Of a stretch of 36,529 nt of DNA, positions 2,556-13,304 are shown piece after piece. A program made the position numbers and the translations under genes. How positions within the stretch are numbered: the stretch's first letter is position 1; each line of letters begins with the position of its first letter. The stretch covers positions 1 through 36,529 of the IMG/VR virus record IMGVR_UViG_3300037485_000582; one strand, 5' to 3'. Below the pieces are notes generated by a model. It was not told where the DNA came from. It was given only the letters and a program-made list of their open reading frames with translations, and did no database searches. Origin of the DNA: a virus.

Positions 2556-2578
2556 AATTTATCAATAAAAAATAAAAT

Positions 2579-3838
2579 ATGACTATTGGTGATTATATTG
2601 AAAAGTTTCCAAAATTAGATACCGAATCAATAATGGCTTATTGCCGTAGAATTTCGGAATTGGGATTTATTGATGGAGTGATAATTTCACCATCTTCAGC
2701 CCGTCAAGTTTTTTATAGAAAAAGAATAAGATGGCAATCGACTCAAAGAAAAATTGGCAAGAATGGCGAAATTATTTCAATCGTCCAAAAAAACATTTCA
2801 GATGTTATTCCATTTCCAGAAAACTTTGAAATTAAAAGAATATCGACTAATCTGAACACCCATCAACAATGGGTAATTGCAGAGCCTGATAAAAATCGTG
2901 AAATCAGTATTGATGAAATTAAAGAATGTTTAAGTGAATTAGATTATGACCAGATTAATAAGGTTTACAGTAAACCAATAACTGTAAAGTCTGACAACGT
3001 GTTGAGAGTAATTATAACAGACGTTCACGTGGGCATGGAAACTAACGAAGATGGAAACGGATTGTATGGAGAGGTGTGGAACGAAAAGGTTTTAAGCAGT
3101 AGAATAGATGTTATTCTAAAAAAGGTATCTTTATTTGTCAAATGTAAAAAATACAAAGAAATTCACTTAATCAATTTGGGTGATTTTATGGATGGATGGG
3201 ATGCACAAACAGTCCGCAAAGGTCACAATTTGCCGCAGAACATGGATAATAAAAAAGCATTTAAAGTAGGTGTCAATTTTTTTGTTGAATTATTCACAAA
3301 ATTATCAACATTTAATTTGAAAATAGTTGTGCACTCTATTACAAATTCTAATCACTCAAACGACTTTGATTATATAGTCAATTATTCAGCTAAGGAAATT
3401 TTAAAAGCTAAATATGATGAAATTGAATATCACATTTATCAGCGGTTTATAGGGCATTATATTGCTGGTAAGCATTGTTTTATCATATCGCATGGCAAAG
3501 ACGCAAAAAACCTTAAATTCGGCTTTAAACCGATATTAGATGCAAAGCAAAAGGATAAGATTAAAGAATACATCAAACACCATAATTTAGATAAGTATTT
3601 TTGCACCTTCGAAAAAGGAGATACACATTTACAGTTGATAGATAATATGACTATTGATAATTGTGACTATCATAATTATTTGGCTCTTTCTCCAGCATCC
3701 GAGTGGGTTCAAACTAATTTCTCAAAAGGTAAAAGCGGGTTTAATATCATGGATGTAAATTTGAACGAAAACGAAAAAGGATTAACTACTTTCTATTTTG
3801 AGTGGCAAAAGCCTAAAGAATATGATTATGGAAATTAA
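2579..3838 (+). CDS. calcineurin-like metallophosphoesterase
   Basis: A 419-residue protein of the Mre11/SbcD/calcineurin-like phosphoesterase superfamily. The five metal-site blocks are in order: ITDVHVGM (DxH, near residue 148), NLGDFMDG (GD, near 205), TNSNHSND (GNHD variant, near 258), ISHGKD (near 302) and GDTHLQ (GHxH variant, near 350). About 140 N-terminal residues precede the fold and begin with a possible DNA-binding helix-turn-helix. A nuclease or nucleotide phosphodiesterase role is likely; the substrate is unknown. It is the last forward gene before the convergent reverse-strand region, 23 bp after the spanin-like gene. Confidence 0.8.
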   Translation: MTIGDYIEKFPKLDTESIMAYCRRISELGFIDGVIISPSSARQVFYRKRIRWQSTQRKIGKNGEIISIVQKNISDVIPFPENFEIKRISTNLNTHQQWVIAEPDKNREISIDEIKECLSELDYDQINKVYSKPITVKSDNVLRVIITDVHVGMETNEDGNGLYGEVWNEKVLSSRIDVILKKVSLFVKCKKYKEIHLINLGDFMDGWDAQTVRKGHNLPQNMDNKKAFKVGVNFFVELFTKLSTFNLKIVVHSITNSNHSNDFDYIVNYSAKEILKAKYDEIEYHIYQRFIGHYIAGKHCFIISHGKDAKNLKFGFKPILDAKQKDKIKEYIKHHNLDKYFCTFEKGDTHLQLIDNMTIDNCDYHNYLALSPASEWVQTNFSKGKSGFNIMDVNLNENEKGLTTFYFEWQKPKEYDYGN

Positions 3839-3906
3839 TTGCATGAATTTTTAATAAAAATGATATGTGGTTTGTGCTTTGGTTTCACTTGAAAAATTTG
3901 CAAAAT

Positions 3907-4182: not shown

Positions 4183-4214
4183 TGTAGTTTGTATATATTG
4201 CTACTATATATGAG
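4183..4214 (+). other. boundary sequence B1 (attI-like target) left of cassette 1
   Basis: Begins TGTAGTTTG and ends TATATATGAG just before TTATGTGC. It matches 11739-11770 at 24 of 32 positions with no gap, and the 3' half resembles 10231-10246. All three end in G directly before a TTA that starts an inverted-repeat-bounded gene block. Confidence 0.5.
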
Positions 4215-4256
4215 TTATGTGCAATAATTTTTTTAAACTTTTTTTGCCACCGCACC

Positions 4257-5066
4257 TTAGTCGGTACAAAATCCAGCTTGACATCCACTTCCTGTTCCAA
4301 AGTAGAAATCTTGTTGAAGTCCAATAGTTTTAATTTTATCATAACTCATTTCTTTTTTCCATTTACGTTTTAATTTTTCTTCCATATCTGCGAACCATTG
4401 CATTTTTAAAGGTTCATCATCAAAGTTTTTTCTAAGTTGTTGTGGGTTTTTCCAAAAGCAACCAACACAATTACTATCAGGTGGAAATATTAATCCAGTT
4501 GAATTTGCCCATTGTCCTACTTGATAGTGTCCTATTCTGTTTTCAATCAATGGATATTTGCACTCTCTCCATTCGATTTCAGCCCATTTATTTCTACCAT
4601 TGGCACTTTGTCCTACAATAGTTTTAAACTTTGTATTTTGGCTATTGGCACGTTCCATTTCATCAAACCTAAATCCAATATTCATTTCAACCATTCCAAA
4701 ATGATTGTAGCAAAATTCAAATATTGGCTTCATTTTCATTTCAGTTGTGCAAAATCGCATCATTAAGTTTGGCAATGCTTTACGTTTCAAACACACTTGT
4801 TCAAATGTATCCCCAGTAGTCCAAATTATCTCTTTGCCAAGCAACTGCTCCAAATCAAACATCAATGTTAATGTCGTATCACTTTCGGCAGTTGCTATAA
4901 ATTCCATTCCTATTTTGTCGCTTACTTTTTGCACCAATGCTTTATCCTTTGGAGTGCATTTTCTATCCTCAATCCTAACCAATGCAAAAATATTTTCATC
5001 AGTTGGATAATGTTTAGCTAAGTAAGCGGAAGTTTTACCTCCCGAAATTGATGTTATTGTTTTCAT
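4257..5066 (-). CDS. PAPS-reductase-family PP-loop protein
   Basis: About 269 residues. It belongs to the phosphoadenosine phosphosulfate reductase / adenine nucleotide alpha-hydrolase family (N-type ATP pyrophosphatase fold). The N-terminal SGGKTSAYLA is the PP-loop, FCTTEMKMKP is the conserved block near residue 115, and the C-terminal half carries cysteines (NCVGCFWK, GCQAGFC) suited to a metal or Fe-S site. Phage members may act in sulfur transfer or nucleic-acid modification; the reaction cannot be read from sequence. I prefer ATG 5066 (MKTITSISGG, preceded by AGGG) to ATG 5084. It overlaps the upstream 52-aa gene and is cargo of cassette-like block 1. Confidence 0.8.
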   Translation of the reverse strand: MKTITSISGGKTSAYLAKHYPTDENIFALVRIEDRKCTPKDKALVQKVSDKIGMEFIATAESDTTLTLMFDLEQLLGKEIIWTTGDTFEQVCLKRKALPNLMMRFCTTEMKMKPIFEFCYNHFGMVEMNIGFRFDEMERANSQNTKFKTIVGQSANGRNKWAEIEWRECKYPLIENRIGHYQVGQWANSTGLIFPPDSNCVGCFWKNPQQLRKNFDDEPLKMQWFADMEEKLKRKWKKEMSYDKIKTIGLQQDFYFGTGSGCQAGFCTD

Positions 5067-5193
5067 ATTCCCTAAGAATTTCATTCCAAGCGGTTAATTG
5101 GCCATTAAGATATGTTAAGGTGTCGTTATTGCGTTCTTTATGCCACTCTAACTCCAATTGTTTTATCTTTTCTTTTATTTTTTCTATTGTCAT
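5035..5193 (-). CDS. small helical protein upstream of the PP-loop gene
   Basis: A 52-residue frame, MTIEKIKEKIKQLELEWHKE onward, rich in K and E and predicted to be mostly helical or coiled coil. Its last 32 bp overlap the start of the PP-loop gene in another frame, which points to translational coupling. No family is recognised. It is the first gene of cassette-like block 1, with an A/T-rich leader. Confidence 0.6.
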   Translation of the reverse strand: MTIEKIKEKIKQLELEWHKERNNDTLTYLNGQLTAWNEILREYENNNINFGR

Positions 5194-5244
5194 TATTATA
5201 ATTTAAGAGCCCACGCACAAAAGTTTAAAAAAATTACAGACACA

Positions 5245-5318
5245 TAACAGCACATAAGCAAAAGCGGGCGAAACAAACTAACCGCATAAGCCCGCCTTCG
5301 CTTATCTGCAAATCGTTA
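5245..5318. repeat. attC-like hairpin E1
   Basis: TAAC (5245-5248), then A, then arm GCACATAAGC (5250-5259) and inner arm GCGGGC (5264-5269). These pair with GCCCGC (5290-5295) and GCTTATCTGC (5300-5309). Then AAATC and G/TTA (5315-5318). The outer stem has one C-C mismatch at its fourth pair. It lies just 3' of the 54-aa reverse-strand gene and separates blocks 1 and 2. A T-run at about 5226-5233 on the minus strand allows it to double as a terminator. Confidence 0.55.
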
Positions 5319-5322
5319 GCTG

Positions 5323-5487
5323 CTATTTTACCGACCACTCCGAAAGTTTAGACTTGACAATTATTTTCAGTTCATCAACTTTTGACAATGGACATCTAAA
5401 TGCAACCGTTTTAGTTTGCTCATTGTATTTAGGTTTAGCACCCGACCCTTGCCGAGTGCCTCCCCTTGTTTCTTTTTTACGTTTCAT
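5323..5487 (-). CDS. ribbon-helix-helix-like small protein
   Basis: 54 residues with a basic start (MKRKKETRGGTRQGSGAKPK) followed by TKTVAFRCPLSKVDELKIIV and SKLSEW. The strand then helix-helix pattern resembles Arc/MetJ-type ribbon-helix-helix DNA-binding proteins common in phages. Its ATG overlaps the stop of the 91-aa gene (ATGA), and its TAG lies 3 bp before the CTAAC that opens hairpin E1. A repressor or antitoxin-like role is possible but unproven. Confidence 0.6.
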   Translation of the reverse strand: MKRKKETRGGTRQGSGAKPKYNEQTKTVAFRCPLSKVDELKIIVKSKLSEWSVK

Positions 5488-5759
5488 AGCAAATCTTTTA
5501 CTTTATACCATTCGTTTTTTTCGCCTTTCTTAACTCTAACACCAACGCTTTTTGCATCTTTGTAAAATTCACGCCTTTGCTTATCATCTTTCCATCCGTG
5601 CCATTTAGGTATCCAAAAAATATCTGCTAATACTTTTCCGTAACTAATATTTATTTCTTGATTTTCAAACATTGTAATGTTACCAGATAAACTATTTTTT
5701 AATCCATCGTCATACAATGATTTGCCTACCCATTTATTTATAAATTCTTCATACAACAT
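5484..5759 (-). CDS. conserved hypothetical phage protein
   Basis: 91 residues, soluble, with aromatic-rich motifs (DIFWIPKWHGWKDDKQRREF) and a basic C-terminal part. No known domain recognised. It is coupled by ATGA to the ribbon-helix-helix-like gene downstream and preceded by an intrinsic terminator hairpin at 5775-5799. Cargo of cassette-like block 2. Confidence 0.6.
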   Translation of the reverse strand: MLYEEFINKWVGKSLYDDGLKNSLSGNITMFENQEINISYGKVLADIFWIPKWHGWKDDKQRREFYKDAKSVGVRVKKGEKNEWYKVKDLL

Positions 5760-5774
5760 AGCCTAATTTTATGA

Positions 5775-5799
5775 TTAAAAAATGGCTGTCTTTCCAGCC
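5775..5799 (-). terminator. intrinsic terminator after the 65-aa gene
   Basis: On the minus strand GGCTG and CAGCC (5795-5799 with 5784-5788) form a 5-bp GC stem around a 6-nt loop, followed by ATTTTTT. It lies 37 bp past the stop of the 65-aa gene. Confidence 0.65.
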
Positions 5800-5835
5800 T
5801 GTCAACCCTGTACGAATACTGTGGGATTTTTATCT

Positions 5836-6033
5836 TTAACCTCTTACACCTCCGCTGTAGCCTCTTTTCAATTTACCGTAGTAATACTTTTGAAAGTTTG
5901 CAGTATCAGCCTTAAACATTTTAAAAGCATCTTTGATATTTGAAGCACAATAGTAGATACTTGTAGGTCTGCCCATACTATCAACTACATTATAGTAGTT
6001 TGCTTGTTCGATTTTTTGAGTTTCTGTCGTCAT
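5836..6033 (-). CDS. small hypothetical protein with its own transcription unit
   Basis: 65 residues (MTTETQKIEQANYYNVVDSM onward), rich in Tyr and Lys with a Gly-rich C-terminus (RGYSGGVRG). No domain recognised. It sits between a good promoter (6054-6084, 20 bp upstream of the ATG) and a terminator (5775-5799), so it is probably transcribed as a single-gene unit. Part of cassette-like block 2. Confidence 0.6.
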   Translation of the reverse strand: MTTETQKIEQANYYNVVDSMGRPTSIYYCASNIKDAFKMFKADTANFQKYYYGKLKRGYSGGVRG

Positions 6034-6053
6034 TTTTTTTGTTATTTATAGCA

Positions 6054-6084
6054 CAAATATACAGCTACTTTTTGAATTTGCAAA
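6054..6084 (-). promoter_or_regulatory. Bacteroidetes-type promoter for the 65-aa gene
   Basis: On the minus strand TTTG (6081-6084), 19 nt, TATATTTG (6054-6061): an exact match to TTTG-N19-TAnnTTTG. It lacks the shared upstream motif seen at the other reverse-strand promoters. Confidence 0.75.
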
Positions 6085-6153
6085 CTATTTCAAAGATATT
6101 TTCAAATTATTTTGTAAAATGCTGAAAATCAAAGAGAAAAAAAAAACAGCAGC

Positions 6154-6236
6154 TAACAGCAGATAAGCAAAAGCCCAAATCCCTCGCACAATGCCAACGC
6201 TATTTGTGCCTTCGCCTATCTGCAAAACGTACGTTA
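6154..6236. repeat. attC-like hairpin E2
   Basis: TAAC (6154-6157), then A, then arm GCAGATA (6159-6165) pairing with TATCTGC (6217-6223), an inner stem GCACAA (6186-6191) with TTGTGC (6204-6209), then AAAACGTAC and G/TTA. The flanks ATAAGCAAAAGC and CTTCGC are nearly identical to those in E1. The stop codon of the 57-aa gene (6234-6236) is the TTA of its right end. Confidence 0.55.
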
Positions 6237-6407
6237 CTTAACAACCCGAATACTCCTGCCACTAAAATCAGCCGTATGGCTAATTTTAAGGCGTTTATCT
6301 TCATTGGAATAGTAAGGTGCTTTGTCGGCTTCATTATTAATTAAAACCCATGTATAGCGTGCAATTGCAACGGCTACTAAAATTGAAATCGTGATAAATA
6401 AAATCAT
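6234..6407 (-). CDS. single-span membrane small protein
   Basis: 57 residues with an N-terminal hydrophobic segment (MILFITISILVAVAIARYTW) and a polar tail ending FSGRSIRVVK. No family recognised. Its start follows the leader form AACTAAAAACAAAAAACA shared by many neighbours, and its TAA is part of the GTTA that ends hairpin E2. Confidence 0.6.
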   Translation of the reverse strand: MILFITISILVAVAIARYTWVLINNEADKAPYYSNEDKRLKISHTADFSGRSIRVVK

Positions 6408-6430
6408 TGTTTTTTGTTTTTAGTTAAAAA

Positions 6431-6670
6431 TTATTGATTGTTGTATTTGGTGATTAGTTCGTATTTTTTGTCTAAAATATCTGCAAAATTAAACTTGTCG
6501 CACTTAAGTATATCATCTAAGTCGGCAAACTTTACTAGATCAGAATTATCCAGTTCATCAATCTGAATTTTAATTTTAATATTTTCGTTGCGAAAGATGC
6601 TAAATAGTTTAGCTACTAAGTCATCATGGACTGCTTGTAAGTACTTTTGGTTTTCTGTTACGTTATTCAT
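6431..6670 (-). CDS. small hypothetical early protein
   Basis: 79 residues from ATG 6670 (MNNVTENQKYLQAVHDDLVA), acidic, with no recognised domain. The upstream in-frame ATG at 6700 lies inside the promoter's -7 region, and ATG 6670 follows the typical leader CTAAAACAAAAAAC, so I chose 6670. It is the first gene behind the promoter at 6698-6728. Confidence 0.6.
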   Translation of the reverse strand: MNNVTENQKYLQAVHDDLVAKLFSIFRNENIKIKIQIDELDNSDLVKFADLDDILKCDKFNFADILDKKYELITKYNNQ

Positions 6671-6697
6671 GTTTTTTGTTTTAGTTAATAATAATTT

Positions 6698-6736
6698 CAA
6701 ATTTAAAAACTATTCCCATAATTACAAATTTGTTTG
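6698..6736 (-). promoter_or_regulatory. early promoter with upstream operator-like motif
   Basis: Minus strand: TTTG (6725-6728), 19 nt, TAAATTTG (6698-6705). The -33 box lies in ACAAATTTGTTTGATAAA (plus strand, about 6724-6741), a motif shared with the promoters at 9039, 13545 and 25599. It drives the genes from 6670 downstream. Confidence 0.7.
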
Positions 6737-6755
6737 ATAAAAATGTTTTAGCGAA

Positions 6756-7046
6756 TTAGATTTGACTATTTAAAATTTTAGAAAAAATATCTTCGTTCTG
6801 TTCCTGGACTGTTTTCTTTTCGGCTTTCATTATCCATTTGGCCCTAAACCCAATCCACTTTTTTTTGACTATATAGGCTAAAATTGTATTCCAGTATTCA
6901 GGTGCAAATTCAGCAAGTTGATTTAAAAACATATCAAATGATTTCTTAGAGTTTGTTTGGTTTATCCTTATTAGCATCCATTGGTCAACTAGCAAACTAT
7001 CCAAACCTAACTTTATTAATTCGCCTTTAAAATCAAATCTTTGCAT
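6756..7046 (-). CDS. replication/recombination accessory-like protein
   Basis: 96 residues. The C-terminal half (KSFDMFLNQLAEF, then WNTILAYIVKKKWIGFRAKW) resembles the short helical tail module of phage replication proteins (N..I..Ai...W.GF...W) found in helicase loaders and DnaT/DnaD-like proteins. The N-terminal part is not recognised. It overlaps the end of the exonuclease gene by 31 bp, so it belongs to the recombination operon. Confidence 0.55.
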   Translation of the reverse strand: MQRFDFKGELIKLGLDSLLVDQWMLIRINQTNSKKSFDMFLNQLAEFAPEYWNTILAYIVKKKWIGFRAKWIMKAEKKTVQEQNEDIFSKILNSQI

Positions 7047-7747
7047 AGTTCAATTTTTTTGGTTAATAAATCGATGTCATCCTGTGGAGGCGTAAACGTT
7101 ATTGAATATACGTTTTTGTAAAATCCATCATTCGGCAAACATGGCAAAGCTTTATTAGATGCTGTTGATATAAAGTAATAGCTACTTAATTCTTCTAAAG
7201 GTTGCTCCTGTGCTAATTCTCTAATGGCATCTAATTCACTTTCATAAGGGCAGTAAACTATAAATTCACATTGTTTACGATTTGAAAGTATAGAATTAGA
7301 AACCATTTGCCAGTAATATTTTTCCCCATCTGTGTGGGTATCTCTTATTATATAAATTGCATCAAGTCCCGTAAAGCCTTTTACAATGGGGTCTACTAAT
7401 TGACAAAAAGAAAGCAAAGTAAAAGGGCATTTCAATTCACAAACCACATCTTCACCTTTGAAAGCATCTGGACTGCCAGCATAATATTCAATTGTATGGT
7501 GGTGTATCGGCTCATTCATTAATGGGGTGTACTCAATACGACCGCTATTTTCAAAGAAATGTTTTTCACATATACGCCCCCATAATAGTGGTTTTGCATT
7601 GCTTTCGGTTGCAAGTGATTTGCCTAACTTCCTTTCAAAAACTTTTGATTCTATATACGAATAACCGCCAACGCTAAATTCATTACCATTTTTGCCTTTG
7701 CCGATAATTTTGTAAATCTCGGAGCTTGTTAAATTACCTATTCTCAT
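7016..7747 (-). CDS. YqaJ/lambda-exonuclease-like nuclease
   Basis: 243 residues with the PD-(D/E)XK layout of YqaJ viral recombinases: LTSSEIYKII at the N-terminus, LLWGRICEKHFFE (helix with the first acidic residue), AGSPDAFKGEDVVCELKCP carrying the catalytic D...ExK, and KYYWQM in the place of the family's YyxQ block. It should resect double-stranded ends 5' to 3' to load the partner annealing protein. It overlaps the start of the annealing-protein frame by 4 bp, the standard SSAP-exonuclease pairing. Confidence 0.8.
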   Translation of the reverse strand: MRIGNLTSSEIYKIIGKGKNGNEFSVGGYSYIESKVFERKLGKSLATESNAKPLLWGRICEKHFFENSGRIEYTPLMNEPIHHHTIEYYAGSPDAFKGEDVVCELKCPFTLLSFCQLVDPIVKGFTGLDAIYIIRDTHTDGEKYYWQMVSNSILSNRKQCEFIVYCPYESELDAIRELAQEQPLEELSSYYFISTASNKALPCLPNDGFYKNVYSITFTPPQDDIDLLTKKIELCKDLILKAN

Positions 7748-8412
7748 AATGTTTGAAGTTTTTTATGCAAATTTAAAAATGATTTCTTTTCGTTTGAGTT
7801 AATTATCCTTTCAGCATTGGTTAGTTCATCTTTAGACAAAGAGTCTTTTTTTATCTCAAATAATTCAATAAGGTCTGATAGTTCAATAGATGCCGATAGT
7901 TGAAGCTTTTCGTTTGCCATTAGCTCAATAGTGTCTTTTCGGTTTAAATCGCTACCAAATAGCCTACCAAAGTGGTCACAAGCGTCTTTGACTGCTATTG
8001 TTTTCGCAATAGGCAAAGCCATCATAATAGCACCCCTGTTGATATTGGACATATCTAGTTTTAAAGAGCCACTATCTTTGGTGGTTTGGATTTCCTGTGC
8101 GCCTACTCCATCATGATAAAGCCATTCATTAAGTACAGGATGTAAGTAGTGAACCCTTACTGAAACTGAAACTGTATTTAATAAAGTCTTTGTTTCTAAA
8201 ACTTCAATTTTGTAAAGCCGAAATATTCTTTTCAAAAGAAATTCTACTTTATCAATTGGTAGATAGTTGTAATCTTTAATAAATGGATGTTTTTTTACCC
8301 ACTTTTCAGGCGGATTTTGGTTAAGCAATACATTCAGCTGGTCTGCTTGTTTAGCAGTGCTTAAATCGCTAATTAAATCTTCATAGCTCGGTAACGTTGC
8401 AAGTTGTTTCAT
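7744..8412 (-). CDS. single-strand annealing protein (Rad52/RecT-like)
   Basis: 222 residues. The core IKDYNYLPIDKVEFLLKRIF, RVHYLHPVLNEWLYHDGVGA, then ALPIAKTIAVKDACDHFGRL and FGSDLNRKD resembles phage single-strand annealing proteins: a beta-rich core, a GvGa turn and a helix before the FGRLFG.DLNR block. It binds and anneals single strands during recombination-dependent replication. The pairing with a YqaJ-like exonuclease directly downstream is strong support. The exact superfamily (RecT, ERF or Rad52) is not settled here. Confidence 0.7.
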   Translation of the reverse strand: MKQLATLPSYEDLISDLSTAKQADQLNVLLNQNPPEKWVKKHPFIKDYNYLPIDKVEFLLKRIFRLYKIEVLETKTLLNTVSVSVRVHYLHPVLNEWLYHDGVGAQEIQTTKDSGSLKLDMSNINRGAIMMALPIAKTIAVKDACDHFGRLFGSDLNRKDTIELMANEKLQLSASIELSDLIELFEIKKDSLSKDELTNAERIINSNEKKSFLNLHKKLQTL

Positions 8413-8437
8413 TTTGTTTTATTTTAATTGTTAATAA

Positions 8438-8716
8438 TTATCTATTTGACCAAAGAAAGTCTAAATGCTTATTGAAGTCGTTTTGGTCTTTATCCTCAAA
8501 GTTATCACTAAAATCAATTTTTACAATTTCTTTTAGTGCTAGTAACGTCATCTTATCGGTGACTTCAATAAAGTCTTCATCTCCATTCAAGTCTTCAACT
8601 TCTACCTTTTTAAATTCAATTTCACCCATCGTACCATCTGAATTTTCAAAGATTGTGCCGTCAATAAAGTAAGTAATGCCTTGCACTTTTACTTCGTAAT
8701 TTTCTAGTTTTTCCAT
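8438..8716 (-). CDS. acidic hypothetical early protein
   Basis: 92 residues, strongly acidic (EFKKVEVEDLNGDEDFIEVT), with no recognised domain. It starts after the leader form AACTAAACAAACAATAAAAC and precedes the annealing protein in the same operon. A DNA-mimic or single-strand-associated role is possible from charge only. Confidence 0.6.
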   Translation of the reverse strand: MEKLENYEVKVQGITYFIDGTIFENSDGTMGEIEFKKVEVEDLNGDEDFIEVTDKMTLLALKEIVKIDFSDNFEDKDQNDFNKHLDFLWSNR

Positions 8717-8745
8717 TTGTTTTGTTTTATTGTTTGTTTAGTTAA

Positions 8746-9000
8746 TTATTGCAATATGCAAACTAATCTTGTTTTTGTCATTTTTCTTTCACCTACATAA
8801 GAAGTACCAACTGTTTTTTCCTTGATAGTAATTGTTTTAGCTGTTTCGTTTACTATTTCTAAAACTTCGGTTTTGCTTCCGAAATTCCACAGTAAAAAAC
8901 TACCTACTTTGATTTCGATTGCTGGAGTGCCTAATACGTTTCCGATAGACTGCAATCTCATTGCATTTGTTGCTGTTTCGTTTACTAATGTGTATTTCAT
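8746..9000 (-). CDS. small beta-rich hypothetical early protein
   Basis: 84 residues (MKYTLVNETATNAMRLQSIG onward), predicted mainly beta (EIKVGSFLLWNFGSKTEVLE) like a small barrel. No family recognised. It is the first gene behind the promoter at 9039-9069; its leader AACAAACAAAAAAACAAAAC has the shared early-gene form. Confidence 0.6.
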   Translation of the reverse strand: MKYTLVNETATNAMRLQSIGNVLGTPAIEIKVGSFLLWNFGSKTEVLEIVNETAKTITIKEKTVGTSYVGERKMTKTRLVCILQ

Positions 9001-9038
9001 TTGTTTTGTTTTTTTGTTTGTTAATTAATTTCGATATG

Positions 9039-9080
9039 CAAATATAAAAACTATTTTCACAATAAAGAAATTTGTCAAAT
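9039..9080 (-). promoter_or_regulatory. early promoter upstream of the 84-aa gene
   Basis: Minus strand: TATATTTG (9039-9046) preceded by AAAATAGTTTT, with a weak -33 (TTTC or TTCT, 19-20 nt upstream). The stretch from AAAATAG to GCATATCGAA and the leader closely match the promoter at 13545-13575, and the related motif AGAAATTTGTCAAATAAA lies at about 9066-9083. Confidence 0.6.
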
Positions 9081-9105
9081 AAAAATATTCTTAAAAAATG
9101 TTAAA

Positions 9106-9785
9106 TTATTTATTTATGTGTTTAGATGCTTGGTCTAATCTCTTCGCATATTGATGCTCTTCAAAGTCTATAAGCAAATATTCATATACCTCTTCAGCTC
9201 TCATGGCTAGGACTTCACCCATTGTCTTATGGAATTTGTCGCACAAACTTTTAATAGTAATTTTCGCTCCATATTTTTTAAACTGGTCAACATCCGCAAG
9301 CTCTTCTAATGCCGATGGCTTATAGTCATTGAGGCGTTTGTAACGTTCAAAGAACTGATTAATTTGGTCAAAAAAAAACATCCGATTGGATAAATAGTTG
9401 AGGTTGGCTCTTCGCTTATATCACGTTCAAGATAAGTCGAACAGATAGTTATTAGTGCTTTAAATGGCTTATCTACTTCAATTAGTTTAGCTTTGCAAAG
9501 TTCAATCTTACCATAAGATTCAAAGCCTATATCTATTTTTTTTATATCTTCATCAGATATGAAGGCGTTTGGCAAATCGGTTGTAAATGATAAAGCTATA
9601 TTGATAGCTCCTAAGTCTGCAATAGTTAGCCTATCATAGTCATTTGAATTTATAGACGTTAAAGCCATGACCACTGATTTAGGTGTGAAATCACAGTCTA
9701 AAAACTTTATGTAATTTTTGAATGGAACGTCATTCCAAGATGTAGGGATTTCAATTATTACACCTCTTAAATTAGCTTCTAGCAT
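9106..9785 (-). CDS. split gene joined across a T9 run (putative -1 frameshift)
   Basis: The zero frame (9785-9306, 159 aa) starts MLEANLRGVIIEIPTSWNDV. At the T9 run (9370-9378 as A9 on plus) the codons are TGT TTT TTT TTG. One base of backward slippage joins codon 139 to DQINQFFERYKRLNDYKPSA and 67 further residues, ending at 9106, for a product of about 226 aa. The downstream part has no natural start of its own. A short and a long form made by -1 slippage is typical of tail-assembly chaperones, and the opening (IPTSWNDVPFKNYIKFLD) recalls such proteins, but this copy sits among replication genes. A homopolymer sequencing error is the alternative. It overlaps the DnaA-like gene by 14 bp. 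Confidence 0.55.
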
Positions 9786-10167
9786 AAGTCAACATCTCTT
9801 TTAGTTTGTTTTCAATATTAGTGAATTTTTCTGAATATGCTAGTGAAAAATCATCTGTGCAACTAAACACATTTCTAATTTGCCGAATGCTGTGGATAAC
9901 CGTACTGTGATCCGAATTAGAAAGTTCACCAATTAAACTCAAACTATTTTTCCCCAATGGCAAATAAATTCTTAAAAGGTATCGGTATAAATGCCGACCT
10001 AAAGCAATTTCACGTTTACGATTTTTAGAAAATAAATCCTGTTTTTCAATTCCTAAAAAGGATTTAATTAAAGATGCTATCTGGTCACTAATGTAGACTT
10101 CACTTGTGGCGTTGCCTCGTACACAAACCGCCAAATGCAAATTTGCCATAGTTTGTTTTTCTTTCAT
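9772..10167 (-). CDS. DnaA domain IV-like DNA-binding protein
   Basis: 131 residues from ATG 10167 (MKEKQTMANLHLAVCV); a TTG further upstream lies in the typical leader and was not used. The C-terminal two-thirds match the DnaA DNA-binding domain: NRKREIALGRHLYRYLLRIY corresponds to the R..aRqiamYl helix, and SNSDHSTVIHSIRQIRN to the signature DHTTVLHA. The ATPase domain is absent, so it cannot be a complete initiator. It could mark the phage origin or compete with host DnaA. The gene itself contains a perfect DnaA box (9891-9899). Confidence 0.8.
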   Translation of the reverse strand: MKEKQTMANLHLAVCVRGNATSEVYISDQIASLIKSFLGIEKQDLFSKNRKREIALGRHLYRYLLRIYLPLGKNSLSLIGELSNSDHSTVIHSIRQIRNVFSCTDDFSLAYSEKFTNIENKLKEMLTYARS

Positions 10168-10214
10168 GTTTTGTTTTGTTTTATTTGTCAAAATTGTTAT
10201 TAATTATCAGTCTG

Positions 10215-10246
10215 TTATTAGACAAGAAAGTGCGTGTATTGAACAG
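10215..10246 (+). other. boundary sequence B4 (attI-like target) left of cassette 3
   Basis: The 3' half TGCGTGTATTGAACAG matches TGCGTGTATATAAGAG of B5 at 13 of 16 positions, at the same distance from the G/TTA junction. The 5' half is not conserved. Confidence 0.4.
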
Positions 10247-10324
10247 TTATATGAAATGCCTTGCTGACGTATTCCAATTGAAGTTCCGTGAATGAAAAAC
10301 AAAAAGAAAAAAGCCACCGCACTT

Positions 10325-10744
10325 TTAAGATTGTTCTTCATATTTCAATTCGTTTCCAGTTAATGCAAAGTATAAGTTTTGCACTTGATGAACATAGCTT
10401 ATATCTGATAAAAATACATTTTGGTCAAGTTCATCTTCATCTGTTTGGGTAACGCAAACTGAATACGCAGTACAATCTTCATCCTGTGGTATCAAAGTAA
10501 GCCACACTACTTCGCAATCTGAAATCGGTATGCTATAATCAAAATTTTCAACAAAGAATCCGTGCTTTAATAACCAATCCTCTTTTAATGGAATTGGCTC
10601 ATACCATTCTGTTGTTTCTTCAAATGAAATTAATTGCATTTCATTAAAACCAACTTTAACTTCTTCTCCCCAATGTCTTTCTTGCCAATTACTGTGTTGG
10701 CTTCTTTTTACTAAATTCCCAATTCTTAATTCTGTTGCTTTCAT
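10325..10744 (-). CDS. conserved Bacteroidetes phage protein (MKATELRIGN family)
   Basis: 139 residues beginning MKATELRIGNLVKRS and ending with SYVHQVQNLYFALTGNEL. This N- and C-terminal combination is widespread in Bacteroidetes phages and prophages without a known function. It is acidic and probably beta-rich. It overlaps the upstream zinc-ribbon-like gene by 4 bp and forms cassette-like block 3 with it. Its stop is followed by GTGCGGTGGC, as is the stop of the PP-loop gene. Confidence 0.7.
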   Translation of the reverse strand: MKATELRIGNLVKRSQHSNWQERHWGEEVKVGFNEMQLISFEETTEWYEPIPLKEDWLLKHGFFVENFDYSIPISDCEVVWLTLIPQDEDCTAYSVCVTQTDEDELDQNVFLSDISYVHQVQNLYFALTGNELKYEEQS

Positions 10745-10962
10745 ATTGTTGTTATTTGATTTAATAGTTTCATAAATGTTTTAGGCAGTTCAAATATCCC
10801 TTTATCGGTGCAGTGTATGCACTTGTTTAAAGTGATAGTTCTTTTATCATAATTTACTTGAACCGTTAAGTAGTCAGCACCTTTCAATATTGTATGCCCA
10901 CAATTAAAACACTCTCTGTTTCTTAATGATTTTCTTTTATCTACTATTCTAAATTTTGCCAT
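10741..10962 (-). CDS. small zinc-ribbon-like protein
   Basis: 73 residues with two CxxC pairs (ECFNCGHT near residue 18 and NKCIHCTD near residue 47), typical of a zinc ribbon, and a basic N-terminus (MAKFRIVDKRKSLRNR). A nucleic-acid-binding role is likely but unspecific. It overlaps the MKATELRIGN gene by 4 bp. Confidence 0.6.
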   Translation of the reverse strand: MAKFRIVDKRKSLRNRECFNCGHTILKGADYLTVQVNYDKRTITLNKCIHCTDKGIFELPKTFMKLLNQITTI

Positions 10963-11040
10963 CGCTTTTTTTTCTTTTTGTTTTTCTGTTTAGTGTTCCA
11001 ATTGAGCTTCATCGTAAATAAGTCGGCACTTCATATAATA

Positions 11041-11084
11041 GCACATTGGCGGCATTAAAACGACCGCCAATCTGCAAAACGTTA
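11041..11084. repeat. attC-like hairpin E3
   Basis: Arm GCACATTGGCGG (11041-11052), loop CATTAAAACGA (11053-11063), arm CCGCCAATCTGC (11064-11075), spacer AAAAC, then G/TTA (11081-11084). The stem is perfect except for a C-C mismatch at the fourth pair. The left TAAC is changed to TAAT. The stop of the 81-aa gene is the TTA at 11082-11084. Confidence 0.6.
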
Positions 11085-11327
11085 CTCACCATCCACTTCC
11101 TCTACTAACTCGGACACAGGTAAACCCATACTTTCTGAAATAGTCAATAGAGCAGGATACCTAAGCAGGTTAATATGATTGTCTTTAATTTGTCTTATGA
11201 CTGTTGAAATCTTACCATCCGTTAAACCAGCAATAGCCAGCATCAAGGATTCATCATTTTTCAATTTATCTTTGACCTCCGTTTTTAGTATCAATTGCTT
11301 TACCATCTTATTATTTTTATTTTGCAA
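11082..11327 (-). CDS. Cro/repressor-like helix-turn-helix protein
   Basis: 81 residues, or 74 if it starts at the later ATG 11306 (MVKQLILKTEV). SLMLAIAGLTDGKISTVIRQ followed by a helix ending ISESMGLPVSELVEE has the order of a lambda-repressor-like helix-turn-helix with a short C-terminal extension. It could regulate the early promoters described here, but no operator link is shown. It lies just downstream of the winged-helix gene. Confidence 0.55.
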   Translation of the reverse strand: MQNKNNKMVKQLILKTEVKDKLKNDESLMLAIAGLTDGKISTVIRQIKDNHINLLRYPALLTISESMGLPVSELVEEVDGE

Positions 11328-11358
11328 ATTTATTAAAGTTTTTTAATTATCAAAACTT

Positions 11359-11703
11359 TTACCATTTTAATTGATAGCTAAATTCAAGTCCTAATTCTTC
11401 ACCACATTTAACCCATTTATCAATCTTTGCTCTTAATCTTTCTCTTTGTAGTCTTTCACGTTCTATTGGTTCGCTTGCTTTAAAAGCAGAATATCTACCG
11501 CATGGGATTTCTTTAATCAATCCTGCATCCAATAGGTCTGTTATCCTGCCCGAAAACCTGTTAAATGACTTATTTAGAAGATAGGATAAATCTATTAAAT
11601 CCATTGGTTTTTCTTTGATTAAATTATAAATCTTTTGCGCATCATTTTTAAATCTGTTTGTTTCAATACCTTCGATGTAGGCTTGTTTTTTTGCTTGTGT
11701 CAT
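11359..11703 (-). CDS. winged-helix DNA-binding protein
   Basis: 114 residues. KNDAQKIYNLIKEKPMDLID, LSYLLNKSFNRFSGRITDLL and DAGLIKEIPCGRYSAF form a typical winged helix: three helices with the recognition helix near residue 50, then a wing. The C-terminal part is helical and basic. Such proteins are common in phage early regions as replication or regulatory factors. Its promoter region contains boundary sequence B5. Confidence 0.6.
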   Translation of the reverse strand: MTQAKKQAYIEGIETNRFKNDAQKIYNLIKEKPMDLIDLSYLLNKSFNRFSGRITDLLDAGLIKEIPCGRYSAFKASEPIERERLQRERLRAKIDKWVKCGEELGLEFSYQLKW

Positions 11704-11738
11704 GGTTTCAAAGTTTATATGTTTGATAATTAGTTATT

Positions 11739-11770
11739 TGTAGTTTGAATTAGTTGCGTGTATATAAGAG
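11739..11770 (+). other. boundary sequence B5 (attI-like target) left of cassette 4
   Basis: TGTAGTTTG at the 5' end and TTGCGTGTATATAAGAG at the 3' end, directly before TTAGCTGC. It is 24/32 identical to B1 with the same length and the same G/TTA junction. Confidence 0.5.
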
Positions 11771-12512
11771 TTAGCTGCAACTGCTACCAGACTACCTATT
11801 ACGGACACCTGTGTATTCAGTAGCTTTTACTTTTTCGACTGCAAAAGCAAAACGCCAAACGCTTTTACAATCAACTACATCAATCAATTCAAGTTTTCTC
11901 CAATGGCATAAACCAAATAAAACGGTTCTTTCAATTATTTGTTCCATCGTTGGGTTATGTGAATCAAAGTAGCTTATCAAATGAGTTTGTGTTATTCCGT
12001 TCAATATGTTTACATAAGGTTTTGGCATTGTAATAAACATCACTCCTTTGTCAATCAGCAAAAATACATCAGGAAAAAATCTGTTTGGGAATCCGTATGG
12101 GTCAATGTCGATAATATCAAACTTTTTCTTATCGGCTATTAACCTGTGATATTCTAAGAAGCTATCTCCTGTTTTCAAATACTTTTTATCGTATGCAGTT
12201 ACATCACCATACGCTTCATAAACATTTGTCAAGTTTCCTTGCCCTGCAAACATTTCAAGTATTTTTGGGTTGGTTTTATTATCCCATTCAAAATCCGCAA
12301 ATACTCGTTTTATTTGGTTTATTTTTTCGTCAGGGTGATGAACTTCATCAGCGTTTTGCTTTTGCTTTGCACGAACTACATCGCGTCTTATTGCTCTGTA
12401 TGTTTTTTGTTCCATTTTATATTTTGTTTTTAATTAAGTTTCTATTAAATTAACCGCAGCAGCAGCTAACAGCACCTATGCGCCATTAAAACGAGCGCAT
12501 AGCTGCATCACG
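11771..12512. mobile_element. gene cassette-like block 4 (methyltransferase)
   Basis: GTTAGCTGC at the left (11770-11778) is exactly inverted as GCAGCTAAC at the right (12462-12470), and CTGC a few bases further in also matches. The right end runs into hairpin E4. It carries one reverse-strand gene. Confidence 0.45.
11792..12415 (-). CDS. class I SAM-dependent methyltransferase
   Basis: 207 residues. KILEMFAGQGNLTNVYEAYG is motif I (SAM-binding glycine loop), VTAYDKKYL gives the acidic residue of motif II, and FDIIDIDPYGFP supplies the catalytic DPYG. The form D.DPYG is characteristic of the Trm1-like RNA methyltransferase lineage, although N6-adenine DNA methyltransferases carry the related DPPY. 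The target (tRNA or DNA) is not decided by the sequence. It is the only gene of cassette-like block 4; its leader TTAAAAACAAAATATAAA is of the usual early type. Confidence 0.75.
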   Translation of the reverse strand: MEQKTYRAIRRDVVRAKQKQNADEVHHPDEKINQIKRVFADFEWDNKTNPKILEMFAGQGNLTNVYEAYGDVTAYDKKYLKTGDSFLEYHRLIADKKKFDIIDIDPYGFPNRFFPDVFLLIDKGVMFITMPKPYVNILNGITQTHLISYFDSHNPTMEQIIERTVLFGLCHWRKLELIDVVDCKSVWRFAFAVEKVKATEYTGVRNR

Positions 12513-12515
12513 TTA
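12467..12515. repeat. attC-like hairpin E4
   Basis: TAAC, then A, then GCACCTATGCGC (12472-12483), loop CATTAAAACGA (12484-12494), GCGCATAGCTGC (12495-12506), ATCAC, and G/TTA. It has the same 11-nt loop as E3 on a different, fully compensated stem, with the same C-C mismatch at the fourth pair. The stop of the 263-aa gene is the TTA at 12513-12515. Confidence 0.6.
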
Positions 12516-13304
12516 TTTTATTTTAGTTAATAAATCATTTCGTAAAAATTCATCTTCTAGTATCAGCTTGCAGGCGATTGTGGATAAGCGTCTTTTTTCA
12601 TCTATTGTCAACTCTACACCTTCATAAATCTTTGACCTTAAAAGTCTATTTTCTTTATTTTCAAAATCAGTGGTTTTTAGAAATACGTTTTTAGCCTTAT
12701 CGAAATATTGCGACTTCATTCCTTTTTCAAGTTGGATCAGACCAGCCTCTTCGTACATTTTAAAATGAAATATTGGAAGTTCAATATAAAGTTTTTTAGT
12801 CTTTTGGTATTCAACTATTTTGATTTTCTCGTTTTCCCAAAACTCCTTTTCAATTTCAGCCTTGTCAATTTCGGTCACTGGTTTGATTTTTATAGAATCT
12901 TCATACTGGATCTGTTTACGCAATGCCTCCGCCCTATCTTCGCTTTCTTTATAGGCTTTCACAAACTTGTGAATAGTGACTACACTAAAACCATAATACT
13001 CGCCATATTCGCCTCTTATGCCATGTTCAACTGAATACTTAAGCTCACCAATCTTTAAGGAGCCATAAGTGTTTATACAGTTCAAAATAACCCCATCCAA
13101 AAGGGTTTGAGCCTCTTTCTGGGTAAATGTTTTATTTAGGTCGTTATATGCCTTCAATAATATTTCAGCAACCTCTTTTCTTAAACGGTCTTTATCCTGT
13201 TGAAACAAATCGGTTATCTTTTCGGTTTGCAGGCTTTCTATTATAGACCTACCTACCACCCCTAAGGAGGGGGCTATCTGTGTTTTAATTGCTAGGTTAC
13301 TCAT
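12513..13304 (-). CDS. conserved phage protein, possible replication factor
   Basis: 263 residues. The segment SLKIGELKYSVEHGIRGEYG then EYYGFSVVTIHKFVKAYKES resembles a conserved block of Bacteroidetes phage proteins thought to act in replication, with a possible DNA-binding helical turn. The rest is helical and charged with no catalytic motif that I recognise. It is the largest early gene and the first sizeable one behind the promoter at 13545. A DnaA box occurs inside it (12579-12587), though codon content may explain that. Confidence 0.65.
   Translation of the reverse strand: MSNLAIKTQIAPSLGVVGRSIIESLQTEKITDLFQQDKDRLRKEVAEILLKAYNDLNKTFTQKEAQTLLDGVILNCINTYGSLKIGELKYSVEHGIRGEYGEYYGFSVVTIHKFVKAYKESEDRAEALRKQIQYEDSIKIKPVTEIDKAEIEKEFWENEKIKIVEYQKTKKLYIELPIFHFKMYEEAGLIQLEKGMKSQYFDKAKNVFLKTTDFENKENRLLRSKIYEGVELTIDEKRRLSTIACKLILEDEFLRNDLLTKIK

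Follow-up and report, generated by a model that had tools for sequence, protein, structure and literature searches.

Small accessory genes interrupt the minus-strand early genes of a virus known from a 36.5-kb IMG/VR record (IMGVR_UViG_3300037485_000582, 36,529 nucleotides, analyzed over its whole length and called the window here) that also carries terminase, portal and tape-measure genes. How did these genes come to sit there, and can they move? The early genes are broken at three places, 4215-6233 (two blocks), 10247-11081 and 11771-12512. Every block opens at the sequence G/TTA, the slash marking the junction, and closes with a hairpin followed by another G/TTA. At the right edge of each interrupted place, the TTA is the stop codon of a resident minus-strand gene (at 6234, 11082 and 12513). 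A first-pass annotation had claimed seven such junctions, and all are exact (4214, 5315, 6233, 10246, 11081, 11770 and 12512). With a probability that we put at roughly 85%, all four blocks are integron-type cassettes capable of movement, lodged at three attI-like sites along the minus-strand early operon of a Bacteroidota phage, an arrangement resembling a cluster of attC sites lacking integrase (CALIN).

Whole blocks are exchanged at the junctions

In a close relative of the window phage, present on three viral contigs with about 88% DNA identity, whole blocks are swapped exactly at these junctions. BLAST alignments of the window with the relative's contig L124 break at 4219/6217, 10249/11082 and 11773/12496, and at the same three sites L124 carries different DNA of about 382, 530 and 324 bp. 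The edges are alike in both phages up to G/TTA, with the exception of the right edge of site 3, which reads CCC/TTA in the relative. Block ends covary with the block, because the relative's block at site 4 carries its own matching ends (TTATAAACT and AGTTTATAA). Block 4 recurs at full length in a different phage (L068:458-1198, 87% identity) with flanks that are unrelated except for an attI-like left edge, and a 279-bp cassette is 100% identical in L044 and L096 with both flanks different; several further pairs are alike. The proposal of the first-pass annotation that the blocks move as cassettes is thus supported by exchange at the junctions and by ends that covary with their block, the two points on which it had said that it could fail, and by the occurrence of block 4 as a discrete unit in another phage. 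The features of the region are listed below, with ranks from a site matrix described further on.

4194..4214, minus strand: attI-like insertion site 1 (minus-strand reading TAA/CTCATATATAGTAGCAATA; matrix rank 3 of 73,018; conserved in the relative)
4215..5315, minus strand: cassette 1 (bounded left and right by G/TTA; start complementary to the cassette's R'' box; replaced together with block 2 in L124)
4257..5084, minus strand: cassette 1 gene, 275 amino acids (aa), PAPS-reductase-like (phrog_424, E=6e-29)
5245..5315, plus strand: attC-like hairpin of cassette 1, TAACAGCA...TGCAAATCG/TTA
5316..6233, minus strand: cassette 2, with three small genes (5323-5487, 5484-5759, 5836-6033)
6154..6233, plus strand: attC-like hairpin of cassette 2, with the end CGTACG/TTA
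6234..6407, minus strand: resident phage gene, with the junction TTA serving as its stop codon TAA
10228..10246, minus strand: insertion site 3, more weakly attI-like (matrix rank 110 of 73,018; identical in the relative)
10247..11081, minus strand: cassette 3, with two genes (10325-10744, 10741-10962); the BLAST alignment with L124 is interrupted at 10249 and 11082
11036..11081, plus strand: attC-like hairpin of cassette 3
11082..11327, minus strand: resident phage gene, its end at the junction
11752..11770, minus strand: attI-like insertion site 4 (top strand GTTGCGTGTATATAAGAG/TTA; matrix rank 1 of 73,018; identical in the relative)
11771..12512, minus strand: cassette 4 (full length, 87% identical to L068:458-1198; replaced in L124)
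11792..12415, minus strand: cassette 4 gene, 207 aa, weakly methyltransferase-like (PF02005 E=4e-4, under its cut-off; phrog_799 E=0.005)
12467..12512, plus strand: attC-like hairpin of cassette 4
12513..13304, minus strand: resident phage gene, its end at the junction

Block starts pair with the R'' box of their own hairpin

The four hairpins share their ends and vary in the middle, following TAA(C/T)-AGCA-stem-loop-stem-TGCA-NNN-CG/TTA. In all four blocks the start pairs with an R'' box that lies just left of the block's own hairpin. The first-pass annotation had noticed that the first bases of a block recur inverted near its right end, ahead of a hairpin, and fold energies agree: blocks 1 to 4 fold at -25.0, -27.4, -21.5 and -27.3 kcal/mol as circles against -17.8, -15.7, -12.2 and -15.0 kcal/mol in linear form, so that the circle is better by 7 to 12 kcal/mol at each of the four sites. 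Its statement that block ends differ between blocks stands only in part, since the match holds within each block but blocks 2 and 4 share the end GTTAGCTGC. The R'' box of block 3 ends in TAAT rather than TAAC, and block 2 terminates in ...AAAACGTACG/TTA, with three additional bases.

The R''/start match is beyond chance. Among 86 viral hairpins picked by pattern alone, 71% have an upstream G/TTA with at least five of six matching bases beyond the TTA, against 13% when the R'' box was borrowed from another locus. Complementarity of this kind cannot by itself assign a hairpin to a gene, because the two readings are mirror images; the assignment is settled by sites that hold a single cassette, by the hairpin-less integrase end of arrays and by cassettes common to several phages. 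Across 274 phage cassettes, the long imperfect hairpin typical of attC is present, with unpaired spacers (1 and 5 nt in 157 of them) and a variable terminal loop. Only GTTA, which the finder itself requires, is constant in their R boxes, and TTRRRY fits just 14 of the 274 starts. Phage cassette starts, such as window 11771-11785, follow TTAnnnGCAATT. Pairing between start and R'' box resumes past the R box after a short mismatch, which makes it longer than the R box of a class 1 attC. The latter is 7 bp.

A viral cassette family with reversed genes

The hairpin pattern TAACAGCA N24-54 CTGCANAACGTTA matches at least 120 stretches of viral contigs. The same pattern has only 21 matches in 85,000 bacterial and archaeal genomes, a number that cannot measure bacterial arrays, as several of these matches lie on phage-like or non-Bacteroidota contigs. 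A simple finder requiring R''/start pairing and a hairpin called the 274 cassettes in the viral loci that we fetched (median 458 bp; exact duplicates removed, near-duplicates remaining), and their gene products fall into 169 protein families, the largest of which appears, by reading of its sequences, to be DNA methyltransferases. In a class 1 integron control with a looser finder, known cassettes were mostly called in the usual orientation, along with some spurious calls. Some arrays near recombinases have other hairpin types, outside the narrow pattern. Units of the family are borne by two isolates, Flavobacterium phage 11b and Polaribacter phage P12002L. In the latter (L153:29238-30053, within the published CALIN region), the hairpin is antisense to a methyltransferase gene, as fits the inverted family.

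With each hairpin oriented so that its short spacer lies to the left and CG/TTA to the right, 225 of 231 phage cassettes have a longest open reading frame (ORF) that points away from the hairpin, and in the other 6 it points toward it. The first-pass annotation had described genes running from hairpin to target, opposite to most integrons, in the window; the same arrangement prevails throughout the phage family. In cassettes from Bacteroidota chromosomes, the ORF reads toward the hairpin in 28 and away from it in 2, a small sample of 30 scored cassettes. The comparison is independent of how hairpins are assigned to genes, since the asymmetry of the hairpin itself is all that it draws on. These chromosomes hold arrays of the same hairpin type (including TAACAGCA...CTGCAAAACG/TTA) adjoining relatives of the phage recombinase described below, mostly at 35-41% identity. 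The placement of the integrase flips as well: phage arrays lie at its start, bacterial arrays downstream of its end. Six Bacteroidota genomes (L275, L279, L285, L286, L289 and L294) have chromosomal arrays of usual polarity beside XerA-like recombinases without the IntI domain, and some of these recombinases are 480-500 aa long with an extra N-terminal region.

A phage recombinase beside an attI-like site

No recombinase or integrase gene was found in the window, as the first-pass annotation had said, and related cassettes in other phages abut one. We searched 49 records, nearly all of them with cassettes, and found a PF00589 recombinase in five; three of the five proteins are Xer/IntI-like, 277-298 aa long and encoded 1 to 4 kb from a hairpin. 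At the loci of these three first-found recombinases, whole arrays run up to the integrase start codon. We collected 22 viral loci with relatives (at least 38% identity) of a 263-289 aa tyrosine recombinase. Around the phage recombinase relatives the finder made 59 cassette calls in 244 kb, against one in 335 kb around other tyrosine recombinases.

In 10 of the 16 loci with a call, 47-54 bp separate the first G/TTA junction from the integrase ATG downstream of it, and the junction motif there is mostly TATATAATAG/TTA or a close variant. An attI-like site beside the integrase gene is thus present in related phages, and the same motif occurs at window sites 1 and 4. We built a site matrix from 15 sites adjoining phage integrase genes, with no window site among them. 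Of 73,018 positions scored, window site 4 comes out on top, site 1 takes rank 3 and site 3 rank 110; in the relative, site 1 comes first and site 4 second.

Six catalytic residues (R, K, H, R, H, Y) are invariant in the recombinases. For a structure model (mean predicted local distance difference test score, pLDDT, 88.5), the closest neighbor by Z score is XerA, at 23.9, followed by 2a3v, the integrase of a Vibrio integron, at 21.7. The IntI-specific segment, residues 205-253 of IntI1, has almost no counterpart in the phage or Bacteroidota recombinases; TIGR02249 aligns to the phage recombinase in two stretches, below its cut-off, and the phage proteins also score below the cut-off of NF040815. 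In a quick tree, in which IntI1 and the integrase of Polaribacter phage Leef_1 sit on long branches with unsure placement, 21 of the 22 phage integrases form one cluster together with a contig binned in a Bacteroidales metagenome-assembled genome (MAG); L171 falls outside. In 395 Bacteroidota genomes there is no bacterial match above 41% identity, while about half of the phage members match the same query at 50-62%. The nearest integrase from a cultured phage is that of Leef_1 (36%), which has no detectable array. The MAG-binned contig (JAQVVM010000005.1, 109 kb; L293 and L135) looks like a phage, to judge from its terminase-like and endolysin genes, and carries mostly inverted cassettes; its phage-type integrase has one in-frame TAA.

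Elsewhere in the window, a segment (2569-3840) that holds a 419-aa exonuclease-like gene is inverted with respect to its neighbors in the relative (L124, L128), and a strong flanking inverted repeat is absent. Megablast of the region and tblastn of one resident gene against an annotated phage collection gave no match.

A model of cassette movement

How would such a unit move? The unit would comprise TTA, the gene, the R'' box, the hairpin and a final G. On closure into a circle, its first bases would complete a folded attC-like site, and a tyrosine recombinase of the Xer/IntI type would join the folded single strand to G/TTA. The candidate enzyme is the recombinase of related phages, whose gene starts about 50 bp away from an attI-like site and its array. 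Because a recombinase gene is absent from the window and from the contig of its relative, we infer that for the window cassettes the enzyme works in trans, or worked in the past. The target TTA doubles as the stop codon (TAA) of the gene that precedes it in the operon, and an insertion would therefore leave the resident gene intact and place the cassette under the phage operon, from which it would be expressed. Unlike in bacterial cassettes, the gene reads away from its own attC and toward attI, with the hairpin on its 5' side. More broadly, it is probable that Bacteroidota phages run an integron-like system of their own, with a polarity-flipped cassette pool whose members are captured by a recombinase that resembles XerA and has no IntI domain, and in which phages lacking an integrase share in trans. 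Methyltransferases and other counter-defence genes are probably what is exchanged.

Several observations sit uneasily with this model. The L124 insert at site 3 (about 6599-7129) has no visible hairpin and looks as if it were a fixed resident, and site 3 itself scores weakly as an attI. Some cassettes share their gene and R boxes and differ in the hairpin interior, a pattern not accounted for by the mere movement of cassettes. In one pair, L014:7671-8310 and L123:8428-9066 (both minus strand), gene and R boxes are 97% identical and the interiors differ, and L007, L111 and L118 show a similar difference. Hairpins may therefore be exchanged independently of genes. Neither an empty insertion site nor a circular or excised form was seen in the contigs on whose comparison the case for mobility is built. 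Since neither the window nor the relative's 33-kb contig encodes a recombinase, the enzyme is assigned by association.

Alternative explanations

The blocks could be ordinary bacterial cassettes from a host chromosomal integron, moved by the host integrase, as in the CALIN of Qi et al. 2023. Phage CALINs are indeed already published, and Bacteroidota chromosomes carry the same hairpin type beside a related recombinase. The two pools have opposite polarity, however (225 to 6 against 28 to 2), nearly all phage integrases cluster together in the tree, along with that of the MAG-binned phage contig, and about half of them match the common query at identities that no bacterial match reaches. We regard a host origin as unlikely; a host enzyme may nonetheless act on phage cassettes in trans. 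The differing hairpin interiors of otherwise equal cassettes look like the outcome of recombination between hairpins. Homologous or illegitimate recombination, acting at stop-codon junctions or at the short repeats of the hairpins, could then have spread the blocks with no dedicated recombinase. That such a process would yield exact G/TTA limits with unrelated flanks, an R''/start match inside each unit and arrays at a fixed spacing from one recombinase gene seems very improbable.

The first-pass annotation had itself raised two alternatives, single-strand transposons of the IS200/IS605 type and spreading terminators. Transposons of this type or their relatives would have hairpin ends and insert site-specifically beside a short target, as the blocks appear to do, but the ends of each block pair mutually, with one hairpin per unit rather than two, the cargo is varied (169 families) with no common transposase, and the enzyme found alongside such cassettes belongs to the tyrosine recombinases. 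Those proteins of the window cassettes that were scanned had no Pfam match to a transposase, and we give this explanation almost no credence. Transcription terminators or RNA elements would suit the position of the hairpins between operon genes, the block pattern then being incidental. Yet whole blocks come and go, a scan that gave no more terminator-like sites than shuffled sequences placed none of them at the hairpins, and the hairpins have no Rfam match up to E=1. Both identities were rejected for the hairpins, and an incidental block pattern is scarcely credible. We therefore retain integron-type cassettes as the preferred reading.

Comparison with known systems

Phage genomes are mosaic, and clean single-gene swaps are mostly ascribed to illegitimate recombination. 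For such swaps the cassettes offer many phages a site-specific route: their ends are defined, the attI-like targets lie at stop codons, and there is a candidate enzyme. We found no literature report of inverted phage cassettes, of a phage integrase clade with an attI or of exchange at homologous phage sites, in a search that left most subscription journals and preprints outside its reach.

Phage CALINs are already known, notably from Polaribacter phage P12002L (Qi et al. 2023, PMC9892861). They have in common with the present phages attC-like sites and cassettes, an integrase-free phage genome and methyltransferase cargo; the window has four hairpin sites and no integrase in 36.5 kb, the sites having been called by other means than CALIN software. 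The published study covered few phages, had no linked integrase clade with its own attI-like site, showed no exchange between relatives and did not recognize the inverted polarity, remarking only on 'divergent directions' (PMC9892861). In the same work, IntI1 was shown to recombine P12002L_attC2, as a folded bottom strand, with attI1, and the junction was the one expected, which by analogy supports the chemistry proposed for this kind of hairpin, although the site tested may differ from the P12002L hairpin found here.

With class 1 and Vibrio integrons, the phage cassettes share limits at G/TT, pairing of R'' and R' in the circular form (the cassette start being complementary to the R'' box), a folded site with asymmetric spacers, an attI by the integrase start and arrays. 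Unlike in those integrons, where the gene's end faces attC, phage genes are antisense to attC and read toward attI, the R box is GTTA without RRRY and the recombinase lacks the IntI-specific domain. A strict integron is defined by an integrase with the IntI-specific additional domain (as cited in PMC9668308). The integron reading of the first-pass annotation thus holds for limits, pairing and exchange; the system is not a strict integron, because there is no IntI domain, no GTTRRRY box and the genes are reversed. The orientation of integron cassettes for expression is ascribed to the choice of the bottom attC strand (PMC8946536).

The best neighbors of the phage recombinase in sequence and structure are archaeal XerA and the NCBIfam NF040815 recombinases, and to our knowledge neither is known to operate arrays of cassettes. 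In Bacteroidota, the arrays that adjoin XerA-like recombinases share the hairpin type, the junction and a related recombinase (35-41% identity) without the IntI domain. They differ in their usual polarity, in an integrase that reads toward the array rather than away from it and in a separate branch of the tree. Searches keyed on the IntI domain may miss both phage and chromosomal arrays, because both adjoin recombinases without it, a possibility to be set beside the few integrons that IntegronFinder 2.0 reports in Bacteroidetes (PMC9024848). With the same site polarity and reversed genes, the phage pool would be kept apart from the bacterial one.

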